IMG/VR virus record: IMGVR_UViG_3300033153_010718
Coordinates: 1-64,000 of that record
DNA from: a virus
Strand: one strand, 5' to 3'
DNA length: 64,000 nucleotides
Shown here one piece after another: positions 211 to 22,278 of the stretch. The notes under the pieces were generated by a model. That model searched no databases. It was not told where the DNA came from and saw nothing but the letters and a program-made list of their open reading frames with translations. A program made the translations under genes and the position numbers. Position 1 is the stretch's first letter; every line of letters begins with the position of its first letter.

Positions 211-1647
211 CTAGAACAGGTTATCGATCTCGACGCGTGCGAAGAACTCGGGACGCACGAGACTGATCTTGTGACGCGTGCGGACCGCGCGGCGCAAGGA
301 GAGATCATTCGGGTCGATGAAGTTCGGGGTGATCTCCATCGGGACGTAGGGGCTGTAGATCAGGCCCGTGTCCAGGATGCTCGGTCCCTGGAACCCCATG
401 AGAATCTGATTCTCGGGGAACATGGGATCGACGAAGATCATCCACTTGCGGCGCAGGACACCCTGCTTGACGATCCCGCCCTGGTAGACGTGACCCTCTT
501 CCACCGCCGTGAAGCCGTCGATGCAGTCCAGCAGCGAGGCGACCTCGGAGCTGGTGATGCACCAGTTGCAGGGCGCGCGCTGGGTGCGCCGGTGCACGAT
601 GTGGCTCGCGCGCGACATGCGGATGACCAGGCTCTTGAGGTGCCTGTCGTCGTCCACGCCGCTCGGGGTCGCGCGGTCCCACTTGACCACGGCCATGGGC
701 TCGACAGCGTTCAGCGCCGTTCCGGCGATCTCGCGATCGATCTCGGCGGTCATCTCGTCGGACATCATGGCGACGTTGTCGGCGTCCACGTCCCGGCCCC
801 ACATGGCCTTGAGGTCGTCGGAAGCCTCGACGCTGGCCAGGCTCTTGAGCTTGCGGCTCTCGGCCTCGATCGACTTGATGTCGATGTCCAGCTGCACCTC
901 GGGGATGCGCGCGTTCAGCTCGTTGTCGTAACGGTACTCGATCGTGATCGCGTCGCCGTCCGCGGGAGCCGAGCCGAACACCAGACCGAGCTGGCCGCTC
1001 TGGTAGTTGACCGCGCCCGTGCCGCCGGCCATGTTCGTGCCAGCCACGACCGCGAAACCGCCAGCGCCGTTGTCGGTCGCGTTGACGATGCCGTTGACCT
1101 TGACGACCACGGTGCTCATCTGAGGCCGGGGCCACTTCAGGTTCTGGTTGTAGTCCAGCGTGACCGCATCGCCGGTGCCGAAGCGCTCGCCGTCGATGAA
1201 GTTGGAGCTGTACCACTTGTTCAGCACCTTGTTCATCTCGGTTCCGGCGACGACGGAGCCCTTGTCCGTGGCGTAGCGGGGCCGATAGAACGCGATTCCG
1301 CCGATCGGCCCAGTCATGGGCTGAACGGAAGCGATCTGGGTGGCGACGAGGCGCACGGCGGTCCGGCGAATCACCGGAAGCACGTACTTCATGAAGGGGC
1401 CGACATTCAGAGCGCGCGTCTCTTCGGTCAGTCGCAGAAGGTGACGCACCTCCTGCTCGATCATGAGCGCCGCGACGCCCTTGACGTAGTTGACGTAGCC
1501 GGGAGGCGAGCCGGACGAGATGTCCTCCTCGATGCCCTCCAGCATGTCTCCCCACTTGGCGACATACCGAGCCACCGCCGACGTGTCCTCGATCGGGCAC
1601 GCCTTCGCGAGGTCGGTCTGTCCTAACATTCGCCGTGCCGTCAGCAT
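211..1647 (-). CDS. Major capsid protein, T4 gp23-like
   Basis: This 478-residue protein is the probable shell subunit. The middle segment carries the gp23 signature AESRKLKSLASVEASDDLK followed by an M-T-A-E-I-D-R-E-I stretch, which matches T4 gp23 closely in spacing. Family knowledge: gp23 has the HK97 fold and loses an N-terminal propeptide cut by the gp21 protease. It lies downstream of portal and protease genes, the usual T4-like order. AGGAGGT lies just before the ATG. It is close to T4 gp23 (521) in length. Confidence 0.88.
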   Translation of the reverse strand: MLTARRMLGQTDLAKACPIEDTSAVARYVAKWGDMLEGIEEDISSGSPPGYVNYVKGVAALMIEQEVRHLLRLTEETRALNVGPFMKYVLPVIRRTAVRLVATQIASVQPMTGPIGGIAFYRPRYATDKGSVVAGTEMNKVLNKWYSSNFIDGERFGTGDAVTLDYNQNLKWPRPQMSTVVVKVNGIVNATDNGAGGFAVVAGTNMAGGTGAVNYQSGQLGLVFGSAPADGDAITIEYRYDNELNARIPEVQLDIDIKSIEAESRKLKSLASVEASDDLKAMWGRDVDADNVAMMSDEMTAEIDREIAGTALNAVEPMAVVKWDRATPSGVDDDRHLKSLVIRMSRASHIVHRRTQRAPCNWCITSSEVASLLDCIDGFTAVEEGHVYQGGIVKQGVLRRKWMIFVDPMFPENQILMGFQGPSILDTGLIYSPYVPMEITPNFIDPNDLSLRRAVRTRHKISLVRPEFFARVEIDNLF

Positions 1648-1689: not shown

Positions 1690-3465
1690 CTACCTCCGTG
1701 ATTGGCCGTTGCGTACCGCGCGAGCCAGGTTCGTCTGTTCCGTCAACGAAGTGCCCAAGAACGACAGGTCGTGGGCCGCCTCTCCGTTGCCGCGTTGTTG
1801 TTCCTCTTGCGCGACCTCTTGCTCGTAGGCGACGCGCTCGTCTTCGCGCATGGTCTCGCGCCCGCCGGACATCGCTCGCCGCACGCGCTCCAGCGGTCCG
1901 CCGGCCTCCTGCCCGCGCGTCTCGTAGCGCGTCGCCACCTCGTCGAGCTTGCGCTGCGACTTGATGCGGCCGTTGTGCACAGCCTCCATGATCTGCTGGC
2001 GCTTCGGGTGCCCGACGGTGCGGTCGCTGGCATAGGCGAACAGCGTTGCCTTCTCGCCGGTGCTCAGCGCGCTGTGCAGCTCGTCCTCGCGGCGAGCGAT
2101 CAGCTTGCGGGCCTCCGACAGCTCCGCGTCCTTGTTGGCGAGGGTCGCGAGGAACTGCTCCTGCAGGCCGTCGATCCGGCCGGCGATCTCCTCGCGGAAC
2201 GTAGAGTTCTGCTCGTCGAGCAGGTGCAGCCGCTGCTCGGCCTGCGTCGCCCGCTCCTCGGCGACCGCCGTCTGCTGCGCAGCCTCCTCCTCGGCCTCCT
2301 CCTGGGCCTTCTCGACCGAGGCCAGCGCTGCCTCGACGCGGGTGCGCAGCTCCTCGGCCGTCTTGCACTCGGTCACGTTGCCGATCATGTCGCGGACGTG
2401 GCGGTGATGGGGGTGCCCGGCCAGCTGCTCCGACACGTAGAGGCGGAAGGCCAGCTCGCAGCCCTTCTGCTCCAGCTTGGCGATCCTCTCGGACTCGGCG
2501 CCCCTGGCGGCCTCCTGCTCGTCCACCACCTTGGACAGCTCGTCGATCTGCAGATCCTTCTCGCCGAGTACCTTCTTCCCTTCCGGGTCTGGACGGAACG
2601 GGTGGACCATCTCGGCGATCCTGCCGAGGGCCATCTTGGCGCCGGCAGTCTCGGGGTCGGAGGCAAAGTCCGAACGGACTTCCTCTTCAACCGCAGTTCG
2701 CATCTCGGCAAGGGACCGCACGAGCTTGGCGGCGAAGTCCTCGCGCAGCTCCTCGGCAACTTCCTCGCGCAGCTTGGCGCGGTCCTCGTCGCTGTTCTCG
2801 GCGACGGTATCGGAAGCGATGCGCAGCGCGTGCTCCTCGATCTCGCGCACGGCGTCGGGGAACTTCTGCCGCAGCGCGGACTCGGTGACATTCGCCGGGT
2901 CGATGAGGATCTTCCCGGTCGGGTTGCCTTCGGTGTCCATGTCTTCGGTGAACATGGCCGGATAGGCGTCGTGGCAGGCGGGGTCCGCCACGAAATCCCA
3001 CGTGTTGAGCTTGAAGTCCTCGCCCACCATGTCCCAGCCCTTCGGACCGGAAGCGGTGGAGCCCATGCCCCGCGAAGACATGCCGATGGCGGCGCCTCGC
3101 CGCAGGAACGCGGCAAGGTTGCGACCGGCGTCGGCTTCTTCCACGACCTCGAACTTGCCGTGGACCTCGCCGTTGTTCTCCATCCACAGGCCGCGCATGA
3201 TGCAGCCCGCTTCCCGAACACGGCTCTTGCCGTCGCCGGGGTGATCGACGGCGCCCAGCACCGAACCTTGCTTGATTCGGGGCTGGAGCCGGGCGATCTC
3301 CCGCTCCATGACGGAGCGGGGGTAGACACGGTTGTTGGCCGTCGGCTTGTCCACGTGACCGATCTTGCCCTGGACGACGAGAGTCCCGCCGTCCTCGCCC
3401 TCCACCACCTGCAACTTCAGGGGAGGACCGAACTGATCGATAAGCACGCGCCGGTGAACCGTCAT
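1690..3465 (-). CDS. Prohead maturation protease fused to scaffold-like coiled coil
   Basis: Residues 1-180 resemble the T4 gp21 (S80-type) prohead protease: N-N-R-V-Y-P-R near 44-50, a D-H-P-G-D around His75, and G-M-S-S-R-G around Ser130/131, the likely catalytic His and Ser. From about residue 200 to 520 the protein is almost all charged helix (repeated E/R/A/L heptads), like an internal scaffold protein. T4 keeps these functions in separate genes (21, 22), so this 591-residue protein is probably a protease-scaffold fusion. It sits directly upstream of the capsid gene. Confidence 0.8.
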   Translation of the reverse strand: MTVHRRVLIDQFGPPLKLQVVEGEDGGTLVVQGKIGHVDKPTANNRVYPRSVMEREIARLQPRIKQGSVLGAVDHPGDGKSRVREAGCIMRGLWMENNGEVHGKFEVVEEADAGRNLAAFLRRGAAIGMSSRGMGSTASGPKGWDMVGEDFKLNTWDFVADPACHDAYPAMFTEDMDTEGNPTGKILIDPANVTESALRQKFPDAVREIEEHALRIASDTVAENSDEDRAKLREEVAEELREDFAAKLVRSLAEMRTAVEEEVRSDFASDPETAGAKMALGRIAEMVHPFRPDPEGKKVLGEKDLQIDELSKVVDEQEAARGAESERIAKLEQKGCELAFRLYVSEQLAGHPHHRHVRDMIGNVTECKTAEELRTRVEAALASVEKAQEEAEEEAAQQTAVAEERATQAEQRLHLLDEQNSTFREEIAGRIDGLQEQFLATLANKDAELSEARKLIARREDELHSALSTGEKATLFAYASDRTVGHPKRQQIMEAVHNGRIKSQRKLDEVATRYETRGQEAGGPLERVRRAMSGGRETMREDERVAYEQEVAQEEQQRGNGEAAHDLSFLGTSLTEQTNLARAVRNGQSRR

Positions 3466-5702: not shown

Positions 5703-8700
5703 TCAGCGCCGCCCTCGGCGACTCTGGCCAGATGAGAAGCCCCGGCCCGACGGGAGGGCCATCATCCGGCCGTTTTGCTCCCGGAGCGCGAGCTTCTTCA
5801 GATCGGCGAAGAAGCCTCGGCGCGTGTGCTCGCGCGCGGCGAACTCCCGGTCGCGCCGATCGTCGCTCGACATGATGTTGCCGAGCTTGTCCACGATCTC
5901 CTGGTGCCGGCGCCGGGACTCCTTGTCGCGCTGCTCCTCCAGTCGGCGTTGGCGATCGTAGCGCCTCTGCTCCTCTGGCGTCTTGGCGGTGCCTTTCTTG
6001 ATCGCAGGCTTGCCGAACTTGGGCGCGGGCTTGGGCTTAGGCTCGGGCTTGCCACCAGCTGGCGCCTCCTCTGGCTCCTCCTCCGGCTTCTCCTCCGGCT
6101 CCTCCTCCGGGGCGCCACCCTCTTCTCCACCCTCTTCTCCACCCTCTTCTCCACCCATCGCCTCGCCGCCCGCGTAACTCGGCAGCTCGCCGGCCTGCTC
6201 CTCCCCGGCATCCTTCTTCTGCTCCTTCTCGATCGCCTTGATGTCGGCGTCGGAGAGCTTGAGGACGTTCTCTTGGATCCAGCGCGTGGACGTCCACGGA
6301 GCCACTCGGCTGGCGTAGTCCGCCGCCGCGTTCATCGTCTCGTAGGCCGCCAGCTCCCAAATCCCGGACGGGATCGTCATCTCGACGGAGAACTCCGGCT
6401 TCCACGGATCCTTCACGCCGCGCGCGGCCAGGTGCGTACGGATGATCCGCTCCCACCCAAGCCGCAGCTCGCGCTGCAGGTTCAACGTCACGCGCGCGGC
6501 GCGGACGTCGTCGTTCGACAGGATGCTCTTGCCGGGAATGCCGCCGTCCTGGCCGAGATAGTCGCTCGGCACGTTGAGCGTGCCGTGGAGCATCTTCTTG
6601 AAGTACTCGACGTCGTCCATGCTGTTGTGGACGAAGACGCCAGCCTCAAGCGCGAAGCACTCCGTGCCCGCGACGGTGAGGTCGTAGACCGGCTCTTGCC
6701 TGCCCGTCTTGCGGACGAACGTGACTTTGTGATTGCCAGGCGCGGCGGCGCGGCCCCGCGCGACCCAACCTGGGATATGCGCCTCAGCGAACGCACGCCA
6801 CGTGATACCAGCCTCGCGGAGCACACGCTTGATCACGCTTTGCGACAGCTTGGCCTCGTGCATCAGCTCGCGGACCGTGCGCGCCCCGGTCGCCTCGACC
6901 AGCTTGGCCAAGTCCTCGACAGACTCTACGGCTCGCCAGCGAGGGTTCTTCGCCCCCCTGATCCGCCGCTTGTGCTCCTCGCCCTGATTCCATGCCGTGA
7001 GGAGCTTGCTGTGCTTCGCCTTCTCCTCGGGCTTCGCCATCCGCGCCTTCATGCGCTTCCGGTGCCGCTCCTGACGAGCCGGATCGTTGGCCCACCGATC
7101 GCGAATGGACTGCCTGTTGGCCTCCGACTGGAGCGTTGCGCGCCGTTTGGCGGCTACCTCTGGCGAATGCAGCTGGCGGGCGTTCTCCTCGTGCAGCTTC
7201 GCGTGCGCCGAGCGCGTCACGCGCTGCAGCGCGGTCGGACGGTTGTCGCGCTTCCCGTTCTCGTGGTGGATCACGGTGCCCTTGATCCAGCCCTGATCCT
7301 CGTTCACAGCGTCGTAGACGCGCTGGTGCGTGTAGGCGTAGTCGTCCTCGGCCGGGTTGTAGACCTGCTCGTAGCCGTCGAGGCGGTCGCCGGCGGCCTT
7401 GGACGTCACTCGCCGATACAGCGGCATCAGCGAGTCGTCCTTCTTGAGATCTCTCGCCAGCACCCAGCGACCATCGCGCGTCAGGAACGGGTGGTTCCAG
7501 GTGCACTCCACGGTCTCGCCGTTGTCGAGCCCCACCTCCCAGATGTCCGCGCTCTCGTGAGAGAGCCGCGCAGAGCGCGCTTCGCCGGGGACGACCTCCC
7601 CGTCCTTGTTGCAGGAGTAGACCCAGTGCTTGCCGCCCTCGTCGGCCATCTCCTTGATGGTCTTGCTCGCGCCGTCGAGGAGCGGGATCCGGGTGCTGCC
7701 GACCAGGCATTGGTAGTCGGGACCGGCCAGCACGTCCACGCCGGCCAGCTCCTTGCCGTCGCGCACGGCAATGAAGATGTCCTCGTCCCGGGCAACCGCG
7801 TTGTAGCGCATGTCCAGGCGCCCGGTGCGCGGGTTGACCATCTTCTTCTTCTTGAGCGCGGACTTCGCCTGGCGAAGGAAGCCCTCCACCTTGTCCACGG
7901 GCACGTCGGTAACGTCGATCCGGTACACGAACCTCGCGGGCGCGCGGGTGAGCTTGTAGATCATCACGCTGTCTTCGAGCATGATCAAGCGTTTCCAGAT
8001 CCACCTGGCGCCTTCAGCGACCGAATTGTGCACCACCAGGCCATCGCAAAGGAAGTTGTGGTCGGTGTCGGCGACGCCGATGTCGTAGACCTCCTCTTCG
8101 CCGCAAGACTCGATCGACTTGATCGTTTCGAGCGCGAAGTCGCTGTCGCCGTCGAGGCGCTCGTCGTGCCACGTGATCGTGTAAGTCGGACCGCCCTTGA
8201 TGGGCTGGTCCTCGGCCTGCACCTTGCCGCTGTGGTAGTGAACAGTCCCGGCCTTGATACAGCCGTCGCGCGGCGCGCGCTCGCGAATGTTCCCGCACGT
8301 TAGCCCGAGTCCGTCCACCAGCGTCTTGATGTCCCGCACCAGAGCACGGTTGCATAGCTCGGTATGGTAGCGAACACGCCCATCCTGTTCCGTCGTCCAG
8401 CCATCCGCGTCGCGATACCCCTCCTCCAGGGCGAACACCCAGCTGGGAACGCGCTTGTCGTGCGCGCCGCCGATCCAACCGAGGTCACGTATGAGCGAAA
8501 CAAGCACGGTCGAGTTGGCGTGGACCTGCGCATTGTCTGTTGCCCTGCCGGGATTCGTTCCAAGCTCGGCCAGGTAGCTCTCGTAGTAGGCGTTCACGTC
8601 CTCGTTCGTGCCGCGCGCGAAGCAGAGCTGTTGGTCGGTCAACCAGCCGTCGCCGAGCATGAAGCCGAGGAACCGGCAGAACCGCTCGTCCACGAAGTCG

Positions 8701-10454
8701 GGAAGCCGTAGCTCGTTCGTGGACGGGTCGCGGTAAACGGCGAACGCGCCGTTGAACAACTCAAGTCCGACGGTCTGGAAGACACGCCGCAACGCCCCGA
8801 GGTCGATCGAGGAATTGCCCTCCAGCACGTCGCTCGCCTGCTTGCGTGTCAGCCCCTCCCGCTTGAGCGCGCCAGCGAGCCCGCGATCTCGTGGCCCGTA
8901 GCGAGTCGCGCGCCCATAACCGCTGGTCTGGAGCGCGGCGATACCGCGGTCCGTCAGCGACACGCGCGCGGCATCGTTGCCCATGTAGTCGAGCCGCAGC
9001 CCGAGCGGAGGCGGCGAACCGAGCGCCGGAGCCTTGGTCGCGGCGACGATCTCGTCCCCGACCTTCAGCTCCTCCAGCGGCTTCCAGCGGTTGATGCCGC
9101 CAACACGAACCAGGAACGGGTGGTTGGCAGTCGCGCGAATCTCGCGATGCACCGTCTTGAGCCGGAAGATCTCGCGAACGCCGTTGCACGTCGTGTCGAT
9201 CACCTTCGTAGTCCGAAGCATGCCGGCGTGTCGGCAGAACACGCGCTCGCCGACCTGGACATCGACAATGGGCTTTGGCCCTTGCTCGGTCCAAACGAGC
9301 CCATCGGCCGGGATGCACACTCCGTAAGGGGACCGCCGTCGCGTGGCCCTCATGCGGAAGTGGGCGACCTGCCAGTCCTCGAACAGCGCGAGGTTGGGAG
9401 GGATCTGCGCCTGGCCGGCCAACATCCGCCGCAGCTCCTGACCGTTCGCCGTGAACTTCCCGGTGATGTCCTGCACGAACCCGATCAGCCCGCCGTCGAG
9501 CCGCTCGACCCGCCGCACGGTGGGCACGGGCAGCAGGTTCGTGCCGACCACGCCGTTCTCGGTGATGAGCAGCTCCAGGAGATCGTTGCCCATCATCCCG
9601 AGCCCGTAGGCTTGGCTCCAGATCTCGTCCTCGACGCGCAGCACCTTGTGCAGGAGATCGTCGCCGATCCCGACGAGCGCCTTGTCCTGGCTCTGCGTCC
9701 AGATCGTGCGCCCGTCCTTGACCGACGGCTGCGTCGCGTCGTTGGCGAAGTAGCGGAACGCCGAGTTGTGGATGACCGCGCCTTCGCACACGAAGTTGTG
9801 CGTATCGGTGGTGATGTCGTAGACCTTTGCCTGGCCGGCGGGGTGCGGATTCCCGACCACCCCCAGCTGGCCGGAGCGCAGCGCGCCGATGAGGGTCGTG
9901 CCGGATGGGGAGAACCCGCCGTACATGCTGACGATCGTGTCGCCAGCGACGAGATCCTGGGCGTCCACGTAACCGCGGTCGGTGGTAAGGAGCTTGTGAT
10001 CGGCCGTCACCCGCATCTTCGAGCCGTTGCTGAGCGGGAAGGCGATCACCTCAACATCTCGACCGGAGAGCCTGGCGTGCGTCGCCTCCGTCGCGACGAT
10101 CTTCTTCGCCTTCACGTCGTAGGCGAGGATCTGCTGCTGGTCGTCGTCCATCGCCAACTGCTCGATCGGCACCGGCGAGCAGACCGCGCCGTCCATCACG
10201 TAGACGCGCATGCCCTCGGCGACGCAGTTTATATCCGGGTACTCCTCCATCGCCTCGTAGTCGGCGAGGCGGTCCATCAAGGACTGCGAGACGGTGAGCA
10301 GTCCGCCGATGTCCTCGCGGCCCCACACCGAGAACATGCTCGGGACGAGGTTGCGAGCTGCCGCTACCGAGGGCGAGTCCGCCTTCGCCCTCTCCTCGCG
10401 CTCAACGCCAAACACGGCGCGTAGCGCGCCGACTGCTCTGTCTCTAAGCGCCAT
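5703..10454 (-). CDS. Portal vertex protein (T4 gp20-like) interrupted by three inteins
   Basis: The 1583-residue reading frame encodes a portal protein in four extein pieces: residues 1-76, 231-379, 811-915 and 1278-1583, together about 636 residues. Extein text such as E-Y-P-D-I-N joined to S-A-F-R-Y-F-A-N-D-A-T, V-Y-R-I-D-V and M-D-D-V-E-Y-F is typical of gp20, where the portal forms the DNA gateway of the head. Each intervening piece starts with Cys, ends with His-Asn and is followed by Ser, as expected for protein splicing. The C-terminal extein has an acidic E/G/P-rich stretch and a basic tail absent from T4 gp20. Confidence 0.88.
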   Translation of the reverse strand: MALRDRAVGALRAVFGVEREERAKADSPSVAAARNLVPSMFSVWGREDIGGLLTVSQSLMDRLADYEAMEEYPDINCVAEGMRVYVMDGAVCSPVPIEQLAMDDDQQQILAYDVKAKKIVATEATHARLSGRDVEVIAFPLSNGSKMRVTADHKLLTTDRGYVDAQDLVAGDTIVSMYGGFSPSGTTLIGALRSGQLGVVGNPHPAGQAKVYDITTDTHNFVCEGAVIHNSAFRYFANDATQPSVKDGRTIWTQSQDKALVGIGDDLLHKVLRVEDEIWSQAYGLGMMGNDLLELLITENGVVGTNLLPVPTVRRVERLDGGLIGFVQDITGKFTANGQELRRMLAGQAQIPPNLALFEDWQVAHFRMRATRRRSPYGVCIPADGLVWTEQGPKPIVDVQVGERVFCRHAGMLRTTKVIDTTCNGVREIFRLKTVHREIRATANHPFLVRVGGINRWKPLEELKVGDEIVAATKAPALGSPPPLGLRLDYMGNDAARVSLTDRGIAALQTSGYGRATRYGPRDRGLAGALKREGLTRKQASDVLEGNSSIDLGALRRVFQTVGLELFNGAFAVYRDPSTNELRLPDFVDERFCRFLGFMLGDGWLTDQQLCFARGTNEDVNAYYESYLAELGTNPGRATDNAQVHANSTVLVSLIRDLGWIGGAHDKRVPSWVFALEEGYRDADGWTTEQDGRVRYHTELCNRALVRDIKTLVDGLGLTCGNIRERAPRDGCIKAGTVHYHSGKVQAEDQPIKGGPTYTITWHDERLDGDSDFALETIKSIESCGEEEVYDIGVADTDHNFLCDGLVVHNSVAEGARWIWKRLIMLEDSVMIYKLTRAPARFVYRIDVTDVPVDKVEGFLRQAKSALKKKKMVNPRTGRLDMRYNAVARDEDIFIAVRDGKELAGVDVLAGPDYQCLVGSTRIPLLDGASKTIKEMADEGGKHWVYSCNKDGEVVPGEARSARLSHESADIWEVGLDNGETVECTWNHPFLTRDGRWVLARDLKKDDSLMPLYRRVTSKAAGDRLDGYEQVYNPAEDDYAYTHQRVYDAVNEDQGWIKGTVIHHENGKRDNRPTALQRVTRSAHAKLHEENARQLHSPEVAAKRRATLQSEANRQSIRDRWANDPARQERHRKRMKARMAKPEEKAKHSKLLTAWNQGEEHKRRIRGAKNPRWRAVESVEDLAKLVEATGARTVRELMHEAKLSQSVIKRVLREAGITWRAFAEAHIPGWVARGRAAAPGNHKVTFVRKTGRQEPVYDLTVAGTECFALEAGVFVHNSMDDVEYFKKMLHGTLNVPSDYLGQDGGIPGKSILSNDDVRAARVTLNLQRELRLGWERIIRTHLAARGVKDPWKPEFSVEMTIPSGIWELAAYETMNAAADYASRVAPWTSTRWIQENVLKLSDADIKAIEKEQKKDAGEEQAGELPSYAGGEAMGGEEGGEEGGEEGGAPEEEPEEKPEEEPEEAPAGGKPEPKPKPAPKFGKPAIKKGTAKTPEEQRRYDRQRRLEEQRDKESRRRHQEIVDKLGNIMSSDDRRDREFAAREHTRRGFFADLKKLALREQNGRMMALPSGRGFSSGQSRRGRR
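6624..7709 (-). other. Portal intein 3 with HNH-type endonuclease
   Basis: Residues 916-1277 (362 aa). It starts C-L-V-G-S-T-R-I-P, has T-W-N-H-P-F-L-T near 985 and ends V-Y-D-L-T-V with V-F-V-H-N before Ser. The insert contains V-I-H-H-E-N-G-K-R-D-N-R-P-T-A-L-Q, an HNH nuclease core, then an Arg/Lys-rich stretch and a helix-turn-helix-like DNA-binding module near 1180-1225. Confidence 0.87.
8025..9317 (-). other. Portal intein 2 with LAGLIDADG-type endonuclease
   Basis: Residues 380-810 (431 aa). It starts C-I-P-A-D-G-L-V-W, contains T-A-N-H-P-F-L-V near 442, and ends V-Y-D-I-G-V with L-V-V-H-N at 806-810 before Ser. The centre has C-R-F-L-G-F-M-L-G-D-G-W-L around 593-604, the first LAGLIDADG helix, and a second possible one near 700-720. 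The endonuclease would home into intein-less portal genes. Confidence 0.87.
9765..10226 (-). other. Portal intein 1, mini-intein without endonuclease
   Basis: Residues 77-230 (154 aa). It begins C-V-A-E-G-M-R-V and has the block B pattern with T-A-D-H-K-L-L-T around residue 150. It ends V-Y-D-I near 211 and V-I-H-N at 227-230, followed by Ser. There is no room for a homing endonuclease, so this is a minimal Hint splicing domain. It should excise itself from the portal precursor. Confidence 0.88.
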
Positions 10455-10486: not shown

Positions 10487-11182
10487 TCATACAGCACCGT
10501 AGGCCCCCATCAGGAAGATACCGCCGGCCGCGAAGGTCTCGCCGATCTGCGGCAGCACGTCGTAGACCTGCTCCTGCTCGAACTGCTCTTGGCCGAGAAT
10601 GCGGTGATTGTTAGGCGGCGGTGCCCACACTCGCTCGGCCATGCGCCGGAGCTTCGACTTGTTTCCGCGCCGCGGCTTGCCCTCGGTCACGAGGTTCGTC
10701 GGCTCGCAGTTCTCTGGATTGCCGTCCTGATGGCGCACGCGGACCCCTGAAGGAATTGGCTCCTCCGTAGCCCATTCATACACTAATCGCGCGACAGACC
10801 GCCATGCTTTCCTGTCGCAAGCCGCCGGCAACGCCCGCCTGTGCTCGCCGAGTTGCTTGAACAGCGGATGCGCGTCGCGCTTCCGCGCCTTGAGGTAGAG
10901 CGGCATCACCCGCGTGCCCGCGGACACGTAGCGCGCGTCAACCTGGTCGCCCTCGCGCGTCAGCAGCACCTGGTCGGGAGTCACGTGCAGACTGGTGCCG
11001 TCGTCGAGGACAACGCGATGGGTCTGCGCCATGCGGTGCTCGGCGTTCACGAAAATGCGGCCGACCGTGATCTTCCCGCCGTCCCACTGGAAGCAGTAGA
11101 CGGCCGCCTCCATTGCGGCCAGCTGGGCAACGGTCCGCGGTCCGCGAAGGGTGTGGATGATCATGTCGGCAGCGAGGCTCAC
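10487..11182 (-). CDS. Free-standing Hint domain protein with HNH-like core
   Basis: 231 residues from a GTG start. The N terminus S-L-A-A-D-M-I-I-H-T aligns with the start of portal intein 1 (C-V-A-E-G-M-R-V-Y) but with Ser for Cys, and V-T-P-D-Q-V-L-L-T matches Hint block B. The end reads V-Y-D-V-L-P then G-G-I-F-L-M-G, with no terminal His-Asn. V-R-H-Q-D-G-N-P-E-N-C-E-P-T-N-L-V resembles an HNH core. It therefore looks like a former intein that became a stand-alone gene, probably splicing-dead. It sits immediately upstream of the intein-rich portal gene. Confidence 0.72.
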   Translation of the reverse strand: MSLAADMIIHTLRGPRTVAQLAAMEAAVYCFQWDGGKITVGRIFVNAEHRMAQTHRVVLDDGTSLHVTPDQVLLTREGDQVDARYVSAGTRVMPLYLKARKRDAHPLFKQLGEHRRALPAACDRKAWRSVARLVYEWATEEPIPSGVRVRHQDGNPENCEPTNLVTEGKPRRGNKSKLRRMAERVWAPPPNNHRILGQEQFEQEQVYDVLPQIGETFAAGGIFLMGAYGAV

Positions 11183-13126: not shown

Positions 13127-14158
13127 ATGGCACTAAGCAAGAAGACGATCAACAAGCACAATATCAAGAGGGCAGAGGTGTTCGCGGAGCACGGGCTCGG
13201 CAACCACGACGTCCGCTACGCCCACCCGGCGTTCCTGGGATTCGGCGACGGCAGCGACCACAACTGCTGCCTCTGCGACCACAAGCACATCAAGTGGCTG
13301 TTCGCGATCCGCTTCGACGCCCCCGACCTGACGGTTGCGCTGGGCAAGGTCGCAACCGGCCTGGTCCGCACCGATGAGGTTACCCTGAGCGCGATCGGTT
13401 CCAAGTGCATCACCGACTGGCTCGACGCGGTCCCCGACTCGGTCGAGAAGCTCGAAGCGCTGAAGCGCTGGTCCGTCGAGATGGACAAGTGCAAGGAGGC
13501 CATGAAGGTCAAGGTCTGCGAGGATCTCTGCGCCGAGCTGGCCGAGGAGCGCGGCTGGGCGGTCCCCGAGGATTCCACGGCTCGCAAGGTCGTCCACACG
13601 GTCGGGTTCAAGAGCACCGGCTACCTCGCCCGCATGGCGATCCCCTGGAAGGAGCGCAAGCGCTTCAACAAGACCGCGGCCAAGGTGCTCTACGGAACCT
13701 GCGTGCGCAAGACCGCGCAGACCTGGATCAAGAACCTGGAGCTGGTGCTCGCCGAGCAGGCCAAGGTGGACGCCAAGAAGGCCGCCGAGGCGCCGGCGGC
13801 AACCGCGGCCCCGGTCAGCGATCTGCCCGAGGATCTGCTCAACATGAAGGACCCCGAGGAGGCCAAGCTGATCCTGCTCGGTCGCCAGGCGTGGATCGCA
13901 TGGGACCAGAGCGCGGACCCCGACCGGCTCAACGAGTGGGAGCGGACGACGTTCGCGGACATCGGCCAGAAGGTCGTCAAGTACCGCTCGTTCTGCCCCT
14001 CCCCCAGCAAGCAGAAGGGGCTCTACGAGAAGCTCCTGACCAAGCTCCTGGGCGAGCTGGAGGTCGCGCCCTGGTCCGCGGAGCCCGTCGCCGCCGGCGC
14101 GCTCCCCGGCGCCTTCACCTACCTGAGCTTGAGCGAGATCGCGGGGGCGCGCTACTAA
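13127..14158 (+). CDS. Zinc-finger protein of unknown function
   Basis: 343 residues from ATG 13127 with GGAAGGAG upstream. Residues about 45-110 contain C-C-L-C-D-H-K-H-I-K-W-L-F-A-I and later A-I-G-S-K-C-I-T-D-W-L, the pattern of a Cys-x-x-Cys ... G-S-x-C-I phage zinc domain. The rest is helical and basic. It may bind nucleic acid. First long gene after a repeated promoter-like element. Confidence 0.7.
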   Translation: MALSKKTINKHNIKRAEVFAEHGLGNHDVRYAHPAFLGFGDGSDHNCCLCDHKHIKWLFAIRFDAPDLTVALGKVATGLVRTDEVTLSAIGSKCITDWLDAVPDSVEKLEALKRWSVEMDKCKEAMKVKVCEDLCAELAEERGWAVPEDSTARKVVHTVGFKSTGYLARMAIPWKERKRFNKTAAKVLYGTCVRKTAQTWIKNLELVLAEQAKVDAKKAAEAPAATAAPVSDLPEDLLNMKDPEEAKLILLGRQAWIAWDQSADPDRLNEWERTTFADIGQKVVKYRSFCPSPSKQKGLYEKLLTKLLGELEVAPWSAEPVAAGALPGAFTYLSLSEIAGARY

Positions 14159-14544
14159 TGGCCAGCACACAGGACCGGGTGATCGCCTACTGCAAGACGA
14201 TCTCCCCAGAGACGCGGCCGAGCGAGCTGCTCGCGTTCTGTGGCGAGGTCGAGTCTGATCCGCTCCTCATGCCGCTGCCGATCATCTTCTTCGCCGCGCG
14301 CGGCGGCAACGTGTCGCAGCTCGTGGACACCGCGCACGCGGAGCGGAACGACGACGCTGTCGCGCCGTTTCTGACCACCTTGACGCGCTGCATTCAGTGC
14401 CGCACTCGCGGCCGAGACTACGTGCGAGCGGCCTACGAGCTGGCGCTCGACCTGGCCGGCGAATGGGACGACGAGGCCGTTGCCGTTGCCGCCCGACAGG
14501 CCCTGGCGCGCGAAGGAGCGGCAGAATGGGAAAAGCACAGCTGA
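14158..14544 (+). CDS. Unidentified protein
   Basis: 128 residues starting MASTQDRVIAYCKTISPETR; the ATG overlaps the previous TAA region by one base. Mostly helical with two Cys (C-I-Q-C). No family recognised. Confidence 0.65.
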   Translation: MASTQDRVIAYCKTISPETRPSELLAFCGEVESDPLLMPLPIIFFAARGGNVSQLVDTAHAERNDDAVAPFLTTLTRCIQCRTRGRDYVRAAYELALDLAGEWDDEAVAVAARQALAREGAAEWEKHS

Positions 14545-15233
14545 CCGACTCGCCCAAAGTCACGTTGACCAAGATCAGAAAGGCCCGCGAGTGGGTCGCC
14601 TACTACCACCAGTGGCGCAACGAGCCGGACTGCCGAAAGAAGCTCAACCGCTGGCGCCGGCAGCTGAAGAAGGTGCTGGCGGCGGCGGCCGAGCAGAAGC
14701 TGGAAGTTCCGCCTGATCCTTACGCGCCGCCTCCTCCTCCTCCCACCGAGGAGGAACTGCGCGAGGCCGCCGTCGAAGAGGCGAGAGGCCGCGTGCTCTA
14801 CGATCTGCGCATCGACGTGGACCAGCCCTACTGGTACCCGTGGGGCAAGACCGGATGGTCCGCTGTCGTGGTTACCGAGTTGGGCCGGATCTGGTGCAGC
14901 GCGTCGCGCGTGAAGCCGCGCACGGGTGAGATCGTCAGCAAGAACGGACGCGTGCGCCGGGACCGACTGGTGCGCCGCGATCCTGCGCTGCGCGGCAAGG
15001 ACCGGCCGGCGGGAACGCCACCGGAGATCGTGCCCGCGCCGGCCGCGCCAGCTGAGACCGAAGCTGCGGCACAGGTCAGCGCTGGTCCGGTACTGGAACC
15101 AACCCAAGTACCTGTTCCGGCTCAGAACCCGGAGCCCGGGGTAGAACGCACACCAGAAGAGGAGGCCGCCCACCAGAAGCGGATCGCCGACATCTTCGGA
15201 ACGAGCGACAGCTCGGACATCGACGACTGGTAG
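14526..15233 (+). CDS. Unidentified protein with Pro-rich linkers
   Basis: 235 residues from ATG 14526. An N-terminal basic helical part, a P-P-P-P-P-P linker, a small beta segment (G-W-S-A-V-V-V-T-E-L-G-R-I-W) and an acidic Pro/Ala-rich tail. The beta segment looks like an SH3-type barrel. The gene overlaps the preceding one by 19 bases. Confidence 0.6.
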   Translation: MGKAQLTDSPKVTLTKIRKAREWVAYYHQWRNEPDCRKKLNRWRRQLKKVLAAAAEQKLEVPPDPYAPPPPPPTEEELREAAVEEARGRVLYDLRIDVDQPYWYPWGKTGWSAVVVTELGRIWCSASRVKPRTGEIVSKNGRVRRDRLVRRDPALRGKDRPAGTPPEIVPAPAAPAETEAAAQVSAGPVLEPTQVPVPAQNPEPGVERTPEEEAAHQKRIADIFGTSDSSDIDDW

Positions 15234-15240
15234 CACCGGC

Positions 15241-16089
15241 ATGAGCGAGCGCGAGATCAGAAAGCCGACAACCTACACGCACGTCCGCGGCGGCGGGCGC
15301 AGCATGCAGTACTACGCGCTGCGCACGCGCTGGGAATGGACGATGTCCGGGAAGACGCGCTGCTGGACCACACTCATGAAGGAGACGTGGGGCAACGACC
15401 TCGACGCGATCACGCTGCTCGGGATCGCCCCCAAGCCGGTCAGCCGCGACTGGCAGCGCTTCGACGAGATGCGGGAGCTGGTAGATCTGGGCCGCCACCG
15501 CGGGACCGCCGAGGCGCTGTTCGAGCAGCTGAAGAACGGCACGGAGCGCGAGCACGAGCTGCGGCGGACCGCCGGGCGTCGCGCTTTCGAGGAGGTGCCC
15601 AGGCAGATGGCGGACCTGATCGCCGATGCCGTTCAGCGCGCCCTGCAGCTCGCCGAACGATTGCAAGAGTACGGCGTTCGCTACGCGCTTCGCTCCGACT
15701 GCGACGACGCGGTAGAGGCCGACTACCACGCCGAATGGGCAAAGGCCATCGCCGAGAAGTTCGGGGCTGCCAAGGTGCTGATCTCAAAGGACGCCAACGA
15801 GGCCACGACCACCGCCAAAAGGATCGTGGCCGAGCACCTGGGGAGCGTCGATGAGCAGCTGGTCACGGGCGCGTCGCCGGGGCGGGGCTACAACCCGATC
15901 ACCAGCGCGGTTTTCGGCATGCACACCGGCTCGCTCGTCAAATGGCGCAAGCGGCTGGTCGAAGTCATGACGGCCATTGAAGAGACCGAGCGGGCGCGCG
16001 TCACGATCCGCGAGCGCGAGAACCTGGTCGGCGTAGCCCCCCACGGCTTCGACGCCGGATGGGTCTCAGGAACCGCAGGAGCCCCGTGA
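15241..16089 (+). CDS. Unidentified helical protein
   Basis: 282 residues beginning MSEREIRKPTTYTHVRGGGR. Predominantly charged helix, no Cys pairs, no recognised motif. The stop overlaps the next GTG start. Confidence 0.62.
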   Translation: MSEREIRKPTTYTHVRGGGRSMQYYALRTRWEWTMSGKTRCWTTLMKETWGNDLDAITLLGIAPKPVSRDWQRFDEMRELVDLGRHRGTAEALFEQLKNGTEREHELRRTAGRRAFEEVPRQMADLIADAVQRALQLAERLQEYGVRYALRSDCDDAVEADYHAEWAKAIAEKFGAAKVLISKDANEATTTAKRIVAEHLGSVDEQLVTGASPGRGYNPITSAVFGMHTGSLVKWRKRLVEVMTAIEETERARVTIRERENLVGVAPHGFDAGWVSGTAGAP

Positions 16090-16376
16090 CGGACACACCG
16101 ACGACCGACAGGGCTCTCGGCCCGCATTACTACGGCCACGGCGACGCAGCGACGCTGCGCCGCGTCGCGGCGCGCGGCGACTGGCTGTCCGTAAGTCATG
16201 GGCGGGGGCGGTTGATCAGGCACATCAACGCCGACGGTCGCCACTTCGTCATGCGCCGGGGGGCGCGAGCGGCGTTCGCCATCTGCGCAGCCTGCGGCAC
16301 GTTCGCCGAGATCAGCTACGTCGCGGGCAACCGCCCGTTCTGCTCTGCCAGCTGCACGAGGAGACGCGATGACTGA
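16086..16376 (+). CDS. Small protein with C-terminal zinc ribbon
   Basis: 96 residues from GTG 16086 (GTGA overlap with previous stop). C-A-A-C-G-T-F and C-S-A-S-C near the end form a probable four-Cys zinc site. Confidence 0.62.
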   Translation: MTDTPTTDRALGPHYYGHGDAATLRRVAARGDWLSVSHGRGRLIRHINADGRHFVMRRGARAAFAICAACGTFAEISYVAGNRPFCSASCTRRRDD

Positions 16377-17037
16377 ACGCCACGACGTCAGGGCACCGAG
16401 GCGAGATGTTGTGGACCCCCGGCCCAAGGGCACCGTCCGCGTGCGCCTGATCGTCGAGGAGTGGCACGGCGAGAGCTGGGACCGCGAGCCCGACTACAAC
16501 ACCACGCTCGCCACCTTCTCGCCGGACCTCGTCGGGCCCAATGGCGAGGGTCTGCACCTGGTGGGCTCCCCGCTCCAGGTCTACCTCGGCGCCGTCAAGA
16601 ACGCCGTGAAAGGCATCAACATCGAGCTGGCGACCGCCGACCACTGGAGGTGCTGCGGCACGTGGCACGCCGACGCCTTGAGCCACTGCCCGCACTGCTT
16701 CCGGTCGCGGCACGTCTGCGGCACCTGCGGCATAGCCGTCGTTGGCGAGGGCTGGTGTGTGAAGCACCACCCAAACACGAAGCCGGAGTACGCGGCAGTC
16801 TGGGAGAAGATCCGAGCGCAGCTCGACATTGCCGTCAAGCACGCGGCGACGCCGCTCGGGGAGCTGCGGGAATTCAGGGAACTCCTCGCGCACAACGAGC
16901 TGGAACTCGCCTGGGACGCTCTCTTCGAGGCGGCGCCGAACCCGCCCGGCGGCTTCTTCTGGAAACCAATGGCGCGCGCCGCAGAGCTGATGCAACTCCC
17001 CGAGAAGGCCGCGGCTGCCGAAGCGCGATCCAAGTGA
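16369..17037 (+). CDS. Cys/His-rich protein of unknown function
   Basis: 222 residues. The middle holds R-C-C-G-T-W-H, C-P-H-C-F-R-S-R-H-V-C-G-T-C-G and W-C-V-K-H-H, several zinc knuckles. N-terminal beta-rich part, C-terminal helices. Overlaps its neighbour by 8 bases. Confidence 0.65.
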   Translation: MTERHDVRAPRRDVVDPRPKGTVRVRLIVEEWHGESWDREPDYNTTLATFSPDLVGPNGEGLHLVGSPLQVYLGAVKNAVKGINIELATADHWRCCGTWHADALSHCPHCFRSRHVCGTCGIAVVGEGWCVKHHPNTKPEYAAVWEKIRAQLDIAVKHAATPLGELREFRELLAHNELELAWDALFEAAPNPPGGFFWKPMARAAELMQLPEKAAAAEARSK

Positions 17038-19058: not shown

Positions 19059-19132
19059 TGGAGCCTGTGGGCTTTGCTCCCACCGCCTTCGGCTTGCAAC
19101 ACCGACGCTCTGCCTGAATGAGCTAAGGCCCC
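19059..19132 (-). tRNA. tRNA-Ala (TGC)
   Basis: Cloverleaf with 7-bp acceptor including the G3-U70 alanine identity pair and loop GTTGCAA. The T-loop is AGCAAAG, so both 54 and 55 depart from consensus. No encoded CCA. Confidence 0.85.
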
Positions 19133-19136
19133 ATGA

Positions 19137-19170
19137 TAGGTCCGCTCGGACTTGCACCGAGGTTGGCTTA
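19137..19170 (-). pseudogene. Orphan tRNA 3' half
   Basis: A perfect T-arm CTCGG-TGCAAGT-CCGAG and a 3' acceptor strand CGGACCT-A are present, but tRNA-Lys ends directly upstream, so no 5' half exists. Probably a deletion remnant. Confidence 0.5.
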
Positions 19171-19241
19171 TAGACCCGCAGGGTAACGCGCCCTGTTCCC
19201 CAGGGTAAAAGCCTGGTGCATCACTTTAATGCTTCGGATCC
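19171..19241 (-). tRNA. tRNA-Lys (TTT)
   Basis: Acceptor GGATCCG/CGGGTCT, D-stem GCAT/ATGC, anticodon stem CCAGG/CCTGG with loop CTTTTAC. T-loop is CGCGTTA. Its first base overlaps the last base of the HNH gene stop codon. Confidence 0.8.
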
Positions 19242-19723
19242 TAGATCAATCCGTAAGCTCTGGCCCACTTGCGGATCGCGTTGTCTGTAACTCCATATTT
19301 CCGACCAAGCGCGCACCAGCTCGTCGTCTCAATCTCTGCGGCCAACTGCCCTACCGCCGGCCGCTCGACCTTGCGATTGGCGACCCCCGCGCACTGCACC
19401 GAGCAGTAGGTCTTGCTGAGGTGGCCGGAGATCGCAGACTCAAACGTGTCCCCGCAGCTTGGGCACGTGCGATCCTCGCGAAGAATCGGCCGGTTATGGT
19501 ACCGGTCGTGCTCCACCTTCGACATCAGCTTGAGGTTCTCTAGCGCGTTGTTGCTCCGGTCGTCGTCCCGGTGGTGCACCACCTCGTTCGAGCCGAGCAG
19601 TCTTCCCAGATGCTCCGACATCACTGCACGATGCACGTAAACGATCCCGGCGGCGTTCGCCATCGGGTGCTTGGGATCGTAGAAATATCTGTACCCGTTG
19701 ATGTTTCCTATACGCCCAGCCAT
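19241..19723 (-). CDS. HNH homing endonuclease inside the tRNA array (1)
   Basis: 160 residues; ATG 19723 is chosen because residues from here match an HNH protein and the upstream extension runs into tRNA genes. H-R-A-V-M-S-E-H-L-G-R with N-E-V-V-H-H-R-D-D-D-R-S-N-N-A-L-E-N-L is the HNH core. Then C-P-S-C and Y-C-S-V-Q-C form a zinc site, and the C terminus is a helix-turn-helix (Y-G-V-T-D-N-A-I-R-K-W). Such genes spread by cutting and copying themselves into tRNA loci. Confidence 0.85.
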   Translation of the reverse strand: MAGRIGNINGYRYFYDPKHPMANAAGIVYVHRAVMSEHLGRLLGSNEVVHHRDDDRSNNALENLKLMSKVEHDRYHNRPILREDRTCPSCGDTFESAISGHLSKTYCSVQCAGVANRKVERPAVGQLAAEIETTSWCALGRKYGVTDNAIRKWARAYGLI

Positions 19724-19758
19724 GGTCAGAGCATAAAAGGAGAGAGTTCGAGTTTCAA

Positions 19759-19824
19759 TACTCCCGCCCGGAGTCGCGCCGGGAAGGGCCGATTTAGAAG
19801 ACCAGCCTGCACTCTGCCGGGAGC
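19759..19824 (-). tRNA. tRNA-Arg (TCT), short D-arm
   Basis: Acceptor GCTCCCG/CGGGAGT, anticodon loop CTTCTAA. Only about 12 bases separate acceptor and anticodon stem, against about 19 normally, so the D-arm is reduced. T-loop CGCGACT. Confidence 0.72.
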
Positions 19825-19829
19825 GCGGA

Positions 19830-19902
19830 AGCGGGCGAAGGGATTCGCACCCTCGACATCCGATTTGGAAGAACGGCGCTCTGACTGCTGAGCTACGCCC
19901 GC
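19830..19902 (-). tRNA. tRNA-Gly (TCC)
   Basis: Perfect 7-bp acceptor GCGGGCG/CGCCCGC, D-loop AGCAGTCA, anticodon loop CTTCCAA, T-loop TGCGAAT. Confidence 0.88.
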
Positions 19903-19906
19903 GAAA

Positions 19907-19977
19907 TATCCCGTAGGGGAATCGCACCCCTCGCTAGAACTTGAAAGGCTCTCGTCCTGCTACTAGACCGACGGGAC
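19907..19977 (-). tRNA. tRNA-Glu (TTC)
   Basis: GTCCCGT acceptor with G1-U72, D-stem GTCT/GGAC as in bacterial tRNA-Glu, anticodon loop CTTTCAA, T-loop TGCGATT. Confidence 0.86.
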
Positions 19978-19981
19978 AGGA

Positions 19982-20053
19982 TGGTCGTGAAGGGTTTCGC
20001 ACCCCTGGCCTTCTCGATGTCAACGAGATGCTCTACTCCTGAGCTACACGACC
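19982..20053 (-). tRNA. tRNA-Val (GAC)
   Basis: Acceptor GGTCGTG/CACGACC, D-loop AGGAGTA, anticodon loop TTGACAT, T-loop TGCGAAA. Confidence 0.88.
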
Positions 20054-20056
20054 GAA

Positions 20057-20146
20057 CGGAACGCCGAGGACTTGCACCCCACGCCTCTTGCGAGGACGCT
20101 CACCGCTTTCAAGGCGGGCCCCAGCACCTGACCGGGTTGACGTTCC
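20057..20146 (-). tRNA. tRNA-Ser (TGA)
   Basis: Class II tRNA with long variable arm, acceptor GGAACGT/GCGTTCC, G73, anticodon loop CTTGAAA, T-loop TGCAAGT. Confidence 0.85.
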
Positions 20147-20149
20147 TGA

Positions 20150-20221
20150 TGGAGCAGGCGGGAATCGCACCCGCGGCCTCGTGCTTGCCGAGCACGCGCT
20201 CTCCTACTGAGCTACTGCCCC
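20150..20221 (-). tRNA. tRNA-Ala (GGC) with C33
   Basis: Acceptor GGGGCAG with G3-U70. Anticodon stem CGTGC/GCACG leaves loop TCGGCAA, so position 33 is C, not the nearly universal U. T-loop TGCGATT, D-loop AGTAGGA. Confidence 0.82.
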
Positions 20222-20290
20222 GTAGCGCTCGGGGATCCTCCAACCAACGATCACCGCACGCAGCGAATGTCGTCGGCCAGCCGAGCATGA
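20222..20290 (-). other. Structured spacer, possible tRNA remnant
   Basis: GCTCGG ... CCGAGC closes a segment of about 60 bases on the minus strand, but no T-loop or anticodon arm is recognisable. It lies between two tRNA genes and may be a degenerate tRNA. Confidence 0.3.
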
Positions 20291-20361
20291 TGGAGCCATC
20301 GGGAGTTGCACCCGAAACCCCGCTGTGCGAGAGCGGTGTGATCCTGTTTCACCATGGTCCC
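20291..20361 (-). tRNA. tRNA-Ala (CGC)
   Basis: Acceptor GGGACCA/TGGCTCC with G3-U70 and one A-C mismatch at 4-69, D-stem GTGA/TCAC with loop AACAGGA, anticodon loop CTCGCAC, T-loop TGCAACT. Confidence 0.78.
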
Positions 20362-20364
20362 AGA

Positions 20365-20433
20365 AGCCGCTGCGGGGAGTCGCACCCACGTTCCGAGTCT
20401 TACAAGGACCCGTTCCGTCTCACGGCCAGCGGC
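20365..20433 (-). tRNA. tRNA-Thr (TGT), short D-arm and bulged T-stem
   Basis: Acceptor GCCGCTG/CAGCGGC, D-arm CCGT-GAG-ACGG with a tiny loop, anticodon loop CTTGTAA. T-stem pairs as CG(T)GGG/CCCCG only if one T is bulged. T-loop TGCGACT. Confidence 0.75.
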
Positions 20434-20437
20434 ATGA

Positions 20438-20512
20438 TCGGGCTGAGAGGATTCGCACCTCCGGCATCTCGCTCCCGAAGCGAGCACTCTGACTAGACTG
20501 AGTTACAGCCCG
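20438..20512 (-). tRNA. tRNA-Pro (CGG)
   Basis: C1-G72 acceptor CGGGCTG/CAGCCCG, D-loop AGTCTAGTCA, anticodon loop TTCGGGA, T-loop TGCGAAT. Confidence 0.87.
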
Positions 20513-20515
20513 ATA

Positions 20516-20599
20516 CGGAGAGCAGACGATTCGCACGCCATCCACGAGGGACCATCGGTTTTCGAGACCGCGACAGAGACCTGCCCTGCTTTACTCTCC
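20516..20599 (-). tRNA. tRNA-Ser (CGA)
   Basis: Class II, acceptor GGAGAGT/GCTCTCC, G73, anticodon loop CTCGAAA, long variable arm, T-loop TGCGAAT with an end mismatch in the T-stem. Confidence 0.82.
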
Positions 20600-20603
20600 A
20601 GAA

Positions 20604-20672
20604 TCCCGACGGACGGAATTGCACCGTCTTCCGCGGCCGTATGAAAGCCGGGCCTCGCTCTGAGTCGTCGGG
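20604..20672 (-). tRNA. tRNA-Met (CAT), minimal D-arm
   Basis: Acceptor CCCGACG/CGTCGGG, D-arm CTC-AGAGC-GAG (3 bp), anticodon stem CGGCT/GGCCG with loop TTCATAC, T-arm GACGG-TGCAATT-CCGTC. It could be elongator Met or an Ile tRNA with modified C34. Confidence 0.75.
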
Positions 20673-20676
20673 TAGA

Positions 20677-20748
20677 AGCCCCAGCTCGGATTCGCACCGA
20701 GGGCCTTTCCCATACCAAGGGAATGCTCTGCTACTGAGCTACCAGGGC
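20677..20748 (-). tRNA. tRNA-Thr (GGT)
   Basis: Acceptor GCCCTGG/CTGGGGC with wobbles, D-loop AGTAGCA, anticodon loop TTGGTAT, T-arm CTCGG-TGCGAAT-CCGAG. Confidence 0.86.
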
Positions 20749-20806
20749 ATCGCCGGATACCTGCCGAAGCAGGCCAGTCGGGCCTCGCCAACTGCTTGCG
20801 ATCCGA
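20749..20806 (-). other. Structured spacer, possible tRNA remnant
   Basis: On the minus strand CGGAT ... ATCCG encloses a hairpin CCTG-CTTCGG-CAGG. No T-loop of the array type is present. It occupies the space of a shortened tRNA. Confidence 0.28.
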
Positions 20807-20880
20807 TCGAGCTGGTGGGATTCGCACCCACGGCCTCTTGTCCCCCAGACAAGCGCGCTACTAAACTGCGCCACAGCTCG
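20807..20880 (-). tRNA. tRNA-Pro (GGG)
   Basis: C1-G72 acceptor CGAGCTG/CAGCTCG, D-loop AGTTTAGTA, anticodon loop CTGGGGG, T-arm GTGGG-TGCGAAT-CCCAC. Confidence 0.88.
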
Positions 20881-20883
20881 TAA

Positions 20884-20955
20884 TACTCCCATCAGGATTT
20901 GCACCTGAGTCTCGCGCTTCGGAGGCGCGTGTCCTTGCTGCTGGACGATGGGAGC
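20884..20955 (-). tRNA. tRNA-Arg (CCG)
   Basis: Acceptor GCTCCCA/TGGGAGT, D-loop AGCAGCAA, anticodon loop CTCCGAA, T-arm TCAGG-TGCAAAT-CCTGA. Confidence 0.86.
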
Positions 20956-20960
20956 CAGAA

Positions 20961-21033
20961 TACTCTCGGTGGGATTTGCACCCGACGATCTGCCGCTTAG
21001 GAGGCGGCTGCCTTACTGCTCGGCCACGAGAGC
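20961..21033 (-). tRNA. tRNA-Arg (CCT), bulged T-stem
   Basis: Acceptor GCTCTCG/CGAGAGT, anticodon loop CTCCTAA. The T-stem pairs fully only as GT(C)GGG/CCCAC with a bulged C. T-loop TGCAAAT. Confidence 0.82.
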
Positions 21034-21037
21034 AAGA

Positions 21038-21109
21038 AGCCCCAGCACGGAGTTGCACCGCGTTCTCCTGAGTACGAATCAGGCACATCGCTACCTATGC
21101 TTCAGGGGC
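21038..21109 (-). tRNA. tRNA-Thr (CGT)
   Basis: Acceptor GCCCCTG/CTGGGGC with one T-T mismatch, D-stem GCAT/ATGT, anticodon loop TTCGTAC, T-arm CGCGG-TGCAACT-CCGTG. Confidence 0.8.
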
Positions 21110-21113
21110 AGAA

Positions 21114-21196
21114 CGGAGAGCATCGGAGTCGCACCGAATACCGAAGCACGCACCGCCTTCCAAGCGGGCCCCAGGACTACCCCAGGCTTACTCTCC
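21114..21196 (-). tRNA. tRNA-Ser (GGA)
   Basis: Class II, acceptor GGAGAGT/GCTCTCC, G73, anticodon loop TTGGAAG, long variable arm, T-loop TGCGACT. Confidence 0.84.
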
Positions 21197-21212
21197 AGAA
21201 GAGGCCAGTCGC

Positions 21213-21788: not shown

Positions 21789-21800
21789 GACGCTCTCCGA

Positions 21801-21874
21801 TCAGGAAGGCGGGATTCGCACCCGCGACCTCTTGGTTCCAAACCAAGCGCGCTACTAGACTGCGCTACTCCCTG
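21801..21874 (-). tRNA. tRNA-Pro (TGG)
   Basis: C1-G72 acceptor CAGGGAG/CTTCCTG, D-loop AGTCTAGTA, anticodon loop TTTGGAA, T-arm GCGGG-TGCGAAT-CCCGC. Confidence 0.87.
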
Positions 21875-21892
21875 GAGTTGTTGTTGAAAGGC

Positions 21893-22042
21893 GCGCAGGC
21901 TGGGGAATCGAACCCCTGCTGAACCTCCTGGCACCGGCATCTCCCACGATAACCTTTGAGCAGGTTCCTTCCGAGCTATCCCCTCCGCGGTGGGGCGCTT
22001 TGGGGCGTTCCCTCGGTCGTCTGCTGCTCTGCCAAGCTGCGC
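21893..22042 (-). ncRNA. tRNA-like element of about 150 nt with canonical D- and T-loops
   Basis: The minus strand begins GCGCAGC-TTGGCAGAGC, which has the canonical G18-G19, and ends AGGGG-TTCGATT-CCCC then GCCTGCGC, the only TTC-type T-loop in the array. Ends pair as GCGCAG/CTGCGC-like strands. The interior (about 75 extra bases, with a GCTCAAA loop) does not fit one cloverleaf. It could be an intron-containing tRNA, a tmRNA-like RNA, or two fused tRNAs. Confidence 0.4.
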
Positions 22043-22046
22043 ATAA

Positions 22047-22263: not shown

Positions 22264-22278
22264 AAGATGTTGCCGAGG

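Follow-up and report, generated by a model that had tools for sequence, protein, structure and literature searches.

Three inteins in a T4-type phage portal gene, their counterparts in related portals, and a putative freed intein upstream

A gp20-type portal gene interrupted by three inteins of three different architectures raises the question of how several such elements came to share one phage structural gene, and whether the case stands alone. The gene is the longest open frame within the window, i.e. the 64,000 nucleotides analysed here (positions 1–64,000 of the 120-kb IMG/VR virus record IMGVR_UViG_3300033153_010718). A Pfam profile search assigns the frame to Portal_T4 (5e-39), and head genes are found in its neighbourhood. 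The exteins are homologous to the solved T4 gp20 (PDB 3JA7, 6UZC; E 3e-27).

211–1647, minus strand: gp23-type major capsid protein (context; profile search)
1690–3465, minus strand: gp21-type prohead protease with a long C-terminal extension (context; profile search)
5703–10454, minus strand: gp20-type portal precursor, ATG start, 1583 aa, or 636 aa minus the three inteins
9765–10226, minus strand: intein 1 (site 76), 154-aa mini-intein with no endonuclease, residues 77–230, YPDIN/CVAEG...AVIHN/SAFRY
8025–9317, minus strand: intein 2 (site 225), 431-aa LAGLIDADG intein, residues 380–810, SPYGV/CIPAD...LVVHN/SVAEG
6624–7709, minus strand: intein 3 (site 330), 362-aa HNH intein, residues 916–1277, GPDYQ/CLVGS...VFVHN/SMDDV

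Site numbers denote the mature (extein) portal residue that precedes each intein, and a slash marks an intein boundary. There is no second portal across the 120-kb record, and the Pfam splicing profile has no match in it beyond the three portal inteins. No portal homologues were found in GTDB genomes. Two other features of the window can be mentioned. The extension of the S77 prohead protease domain appears coiled, and perhaps represents a protease-scaffold fusion. A tRNA gene cluster is present at 19059–24785 (minus strand), with 29 (ARAGORN) to 33 (Rfam) tRNAs; these were the sole matches when the window was scanned with Rfam for group I introns. We know of no inteins in T4 gp20, and the window portal differs from it in this respect.

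The inteins have the residues of class 1. All three begin with Cys1, carry the block-B TxxH motif (TADH, TANH and TWNH) and end in His-Asn followed by Ser+1 (VIHN/S, VVHN/S and FVHN/S). They score 48, 54 and 69 bits with the Pfam model Intein_splicing (PF14890; cut-off 35.8 bits). The sequence-only reading of this DNA had described a gp20-like portal with a mini-intein, a LAGLIDADG intein and an HNH intein; the boundaries and the Pfam profiles agree with it in lengths, starting residues and terminal signatures, and its estimate that inteins make up about 60% of the frame is borne out by the computed share (947/1583, 59.8%). It had also suggested a comparison with inteinless portals. Homologues without inserts exist, and when the exteins are joined by script, the DNA of the 636-aa portal is 77.8% identical to that of the intein-free portal L006 over 1443 bp, with zero gaps across all three intein sites.

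That the record is a metagenome contig leaves room for the view that some or all of the inteins are assembly artefacts, and the earlier reading had named this as what would refute it. The evidence makes this very improbable. The gene is a single open frame with exact splice junctions, and there is no sign of chimeric assembly, since GC3 is alike in exteins and inteins (0.83–0.95). Furthermore, inteins homologous to each of the three occupy the same site of the portal in other, independent contigs. That three inserts should all keep the frame, bear complete splicing signatures and have same-site homologues elsewhere is, as judged from sequence, not a matter of chance.

The three inteins had been called exceptional, and this stands only in part, as multi-intein portals recur in related phages. 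Searches with the exteins found close portals with zero, one, two, three, at least five and six inteins, and searches with the inteins alone led mostly to T4-type portals again. Inteins are present in 116 of 215 distinct portal ORFs, 55 of which have one, 42 two, 14 three, three have four, and one each has five and six. Thus 61 of the 116 carry at least two and 19 at least three. The count of 19 includes contigs that are almost identical (L240/L241) and calls that are in part ambiguous or truncated (L168, L324). It should be pointed out that these counts are not natural frequencies, because the contig pool was collected partly via intein queries and is biased towards inteins.

The maximum is seen in L072/L243, where a portal frame of 2600 codons without a stop (L072 5299–13101, IMGVR_UViG_3300033407_000015) has inteins at sites 76, 136, 225, 250, 302 and 365. 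An independent Pfam model matches splicing domains at all six places. The portal exteins of L072 are 98% identical to those of L012, yet L012 has one intein. Three portal inteins are also found in a deposited but unannotated 484-kb genome of an uncultured phage (LR756508.1; L163 1764–5924). In the same genome there is a further intein in the ORF just upstream of the portal (L163 93–1682), and a different contig (L325, G005) has another long ORF of 1964 aa in which intein splicing domains are matched at least twice (13420–16794).

Several class 1 inteins in one conserved gene have been described before. Haloarchaeal MCM has four intein sites (PMC10643990), and the Trichodesmium ribonucleotide reductase has four inteins (Liu et al. 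2003, listed in PMC4649490); four is also the highest number for one gene in the literature searched. These genes resemble the window portal in mixing full-length and mini-inteins, and in having empty alleles with unsuitable +1 residues. The portal family differs in being a phage structural gene with about 20 sites family-wide and up to six inteins per ORF, and in having its two endonuclease families split by region. Among phages, portal and terminase inteins are listed for mycobacteriophages in the available part of PMC5050341. These are likewise inteins in head and packaging genes, but the portal inteins listed there are of one type, from subcluster C1, and that part of the paper does not describe multiple insertions per portal. 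In crAss-like phages, one TerL has two inteins of the Hint-Hop type (PMC7886860), which is similar in that a phage gene has several inteins, but the gene is a terminase, the number is two, and the phage lineage is another.

The three window inteins appear to differ in state and history. Homologues of intein 1 are found at site 76 in 17 other called loci, and none of the 17 has an endonuclease. Intein 1 is read as a resident element because it diverges faster than its extein: intein and extein identities are 38% and 62% between the window and L072, and 56% and 73% between the window and L008, and site-76 inteins of L072 and L018 show 71% against 94%. In inteins 2 and 3, similarity is about equal to that of the extein (65% vs 62% and 64% vs 64%). 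The site-250 inteins of L018 and L013 are more similar than the exteins (73% vs 66%), which would fit inteins that are still mobile. In most comparisons, synonymous sites have come close to saturation.

The LAGLIDADG endonuclease of intein 2 is probably decaying. Its first motif (FLGFMLGDG) is present, but eight residues are deleted before the second (EEGYRDADG), and an Arg lies inside the motif helix. The deletion is private to the window, and all 12 other endonuclease-bearing site-225 inteins keep the eight residues. The Pfam LAGLIDADG_3 score is below cut-off, and the predicted structure resembles VMA-type inteins at modest confidence (pLDDT 70, pTM 0.48). Intein 3, on the other hand, retains its HNH residues. 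Its motif, VIHHENGKRDNRP...AHAKLH, lies in a domain that interrupts the Hint fold and aligns to HNH inteins of other sites, with a Pfam HNH_3 score below cut-off. At site 330, close relatives have Ala or Asn at +1 when the site is empty and Ser or Thr when it is occupied, a pattern like that of the refractory alleles of MCM-d (PMC10643990).

The sequence-only reading had also seen in these inteins a natural series of endonuclease gain and loss. Within the window this does not hold, as the splicing-domain tree places the three inteins in separate lineages. Descent of the mini-intein from HNH inteins at the same site was considered as well, but the tree does not group them. The idea does apply to single sites across relatives: site 250 has LAGLIDADG inteins of 405–450 aa and shorter forms of 238 and 140 aa, and site 302 has HNH inteins of about 386 aa and forms of 203 and 140 aa.

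Across all fetched portal loci, in which about 20 insertion positions are in use, the two endonuclease families occupy different parts of the gene. LAGLIDADG-family inteins are found at portal residues 136–252 only, and HNH-family inteins together with the mini-intein at residues 60–131 and 290–365. The partition is complete at every called site, with zero mixed sites. When sites up to three residues apart are counted as one, 20 remain, of which six are LAGLIDADG sites; if the sites are taken as independent, the six would form one uninterrupted block by chance with a probability of 15/38760, or about 4e-4. Inteins of the same site also cluster on the splicing-domain tree (43 changes vs 146.8 when shuffled), a tree of 143 columns in which many forks are without resolution, and the rare sites 230, 237, 238 and 252 nest in the starred site-250 group. 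From the nested rare sites and the same-site clusters we infer local hopping within the portal gene.

A possible, though rather doubtful, alternative is that each of the three inteins was acquired separately, from donors unrelated to one another, such that the clustering of families by region would reflect target preference and not intragenic movement. The separate lineages of the window's inteins are in keeping with this, as are the non-portal relatives interspersed among the HNH inteins of the tree. HNH-family inteins occur in phage contigs in a caspase-like gene (L166 7539–9569), in the RNA ligase gene RtcB (L198 7758–9965) and in a dCMP deaminase gene (L193 7755–9410). These rule out families confined to portals, and because related inteins sit in such genes, not every portal intein need be portal-born. 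Against independent capture are the completeness of the partition and the way several minor sites nest within the lineage of the major site next to them. In addition, F and G are 33% similar over 417 aa, more than any non-portal match (about 27–29%) in a search of 50,697 phage records.

Immediately upstream of the portal is a gene, here termed UP, that appears to derive from an intein.

10487–11182, minus strand: UP, free-standing, splicing-dead Hint-HNH gene, 231 aa, ending 32 nt before the portal ATG

UP aligns over its full length to HNH inteins, beginning at intein residue 1 and ending soon after the last Hint strand, but Cys1, the block-B His and the terminal Asn are all lost. Structure prediction gives, with good confidence, a Hint fold into which an HNH region is inserted (pLDDT 87, pTM 0.83), and its best matches are intein structures. 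On the tree, the nearest group to UP, with moderate support, is that of the HNH inteins of portal sites 67 and 76; derivation from a portal intein is moderately supported. In 17 other distinct loci, too, UP directly precedes the portal, and a scan for UP alone gave matches confined to this portal clade. Two low-scoring matches were set aside, as they represent ordinary inteins of other ORFs (L169, L188). UP would seem to be maintained. Ratios of dN/dS are 0.10–0.23 in well-matched pairs of relatives, one pair having lost the motif His, and 0.44–0.55 in pairs with the more diverged window copy; among relatives UP is, by this measure, under purifying selection. The HNH site is eroded in the window copy, with RH in place of the inteins' HH and the later motif His absent. 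The motif His is missing in eight of the 18 members, and the gene is retained all the same.

The best comparison is with HO and WHO of yeasts (PMC7282813), which are also intein-like proteins that do not need splicing and are encoded by free-standing genes beside a conserved gene. UP shares with them a free-standing gene and the Hint-plus-endonuclease architecture. It differs in being HNH-type and not LAGLIDADG, in lying upstream and not downstream, in being found in phages, and in its eroded nuclease site. Because UP is HNH-type and has no zinc-finger domain, it may be said to work like HO/WHO and not to belong with them.

UP is accompanied by the mini-intein in many loci, which brings up a role in mobility. 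Endonuclease-less introns of phages can be mobilized by a neighbouring endonuclease in collaborative homing (PMC10448857, PMC2988022), and UP might likewise act in trans on intein 1. The likeness is that of a splicing element without an endonuclease beside a free-standing, endonuclease-like gene; here, however, the element would be a protein intein and not an RNA intron, and the partner is intein-derived and probably inactive. Besides the window, 14 fetched loci have both UP and the site-76 mini-intein, and both are absent from 160 other portals whose upstream sequence is long enough to tell. Three loci have UP and no portal mini-intein (L006, L013/L092 and L091/L228), and in each of them there is still a mini-intein, either as a relic beside UP or intact inside it. 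The relics of L006 (4201–5280) and L013 (4327–5280) are free-standing, decayed ORFs just upstream of UP that have lost Cys1 and His-Asn, and the portals there are without the site-76 intein. In L091 (8836–9990) an intact mini-intein (CFAST...IVCHN/STRC) is inserted in UP, i.e. an intein within an intein-derived gene. Also, the HNH intein nearest UP on the tree (L327, L328) occupies site 67 of the portal, and the site of the mini-intein is nine residues away. Nevertheless, trans-acting homing is unlikely. The mini-intein appears to be vertically inherited, the co-occurrence may reflect shared ancestry in one clade, and L323 has the mini-intein and no UP. Cleavage of the neighbouring portal gene by UP is doubtful because the HNH motif is eroded, and domestication is favoured for the same reason.

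A domesticated UP might be an accessory protein of the portal or of packaging that is unrelated to mobility, similar to the HNH proteins encoded next to terminases, its intein ancestry being incidental. The fixed position beside the portal, the purifying selection and the loss of both splicing and nuclease residues fit such a role, and the intact intein inside UP in L091 suggests that the uninterrupted UP protein matters. But the role is a predicted one, and HNH packaging proteins, so far as is known, need their metal-binding site. An accessory function is plausible but well short of probable.

The reading preferred here, with a probability of roughly 0.8, is that of three self-excising inteins in a portal gene that is an intein hot spot in this lineage and its relatives, together with an intein freed as UP. 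The portal would be translated as a 1583-aa precursor. As the residues shown suggest, the three class 1 inteins would then excise themselves via a Cys1 thioester, a branched intermediate with Ser+1 and Asn cyclization, to give the 636-aa gp20-type portal. Intein 1 would be an endonuclease-less resident inherited with the portal, intein 2 would have arrived as a homing intein of the LAGLIDADG family, with an endonuclease that is now probably in decay, and intein 3 would be an HNH homing intein with its motif intact. The two families, LAGLIDADG in mid-gene and HNH on both sides, seem to have entered conserved portal motifs repeatedly, and the tree suggests that they often moved to nearby sites of the same gene. 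One HNH lineage appears to have left the portal, lost splicing and most of the endonuclease site, and persisted under selection as UP. A stronger version, in which a radiation within one gene proceeded by hops between neighbouring motifs until as many as six inteins coexisted and one was released and domesticated, is put forward tentatively, at a little under even odds.

Of these results, the hot spot across the family and the putative freed intein hold the greater interest. Neighbouring inteins hinder each other's homing in one direct test (PMC10643990), and the portal family bears on the question of how several homing inteins coexist in one gene. It includes closely matched pairs (six inteins vs one, with exteins 98% identical), some 20 insertion sites, endonucleases of two families, sites in every stage of endonuclease decay, and empty alleles whose +1 residue is unsuitable, so that the order of invasion, co-homing and loss become directly testable. 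The freed intein, UP, would represent the domestication of an intein in a bacteriophage.
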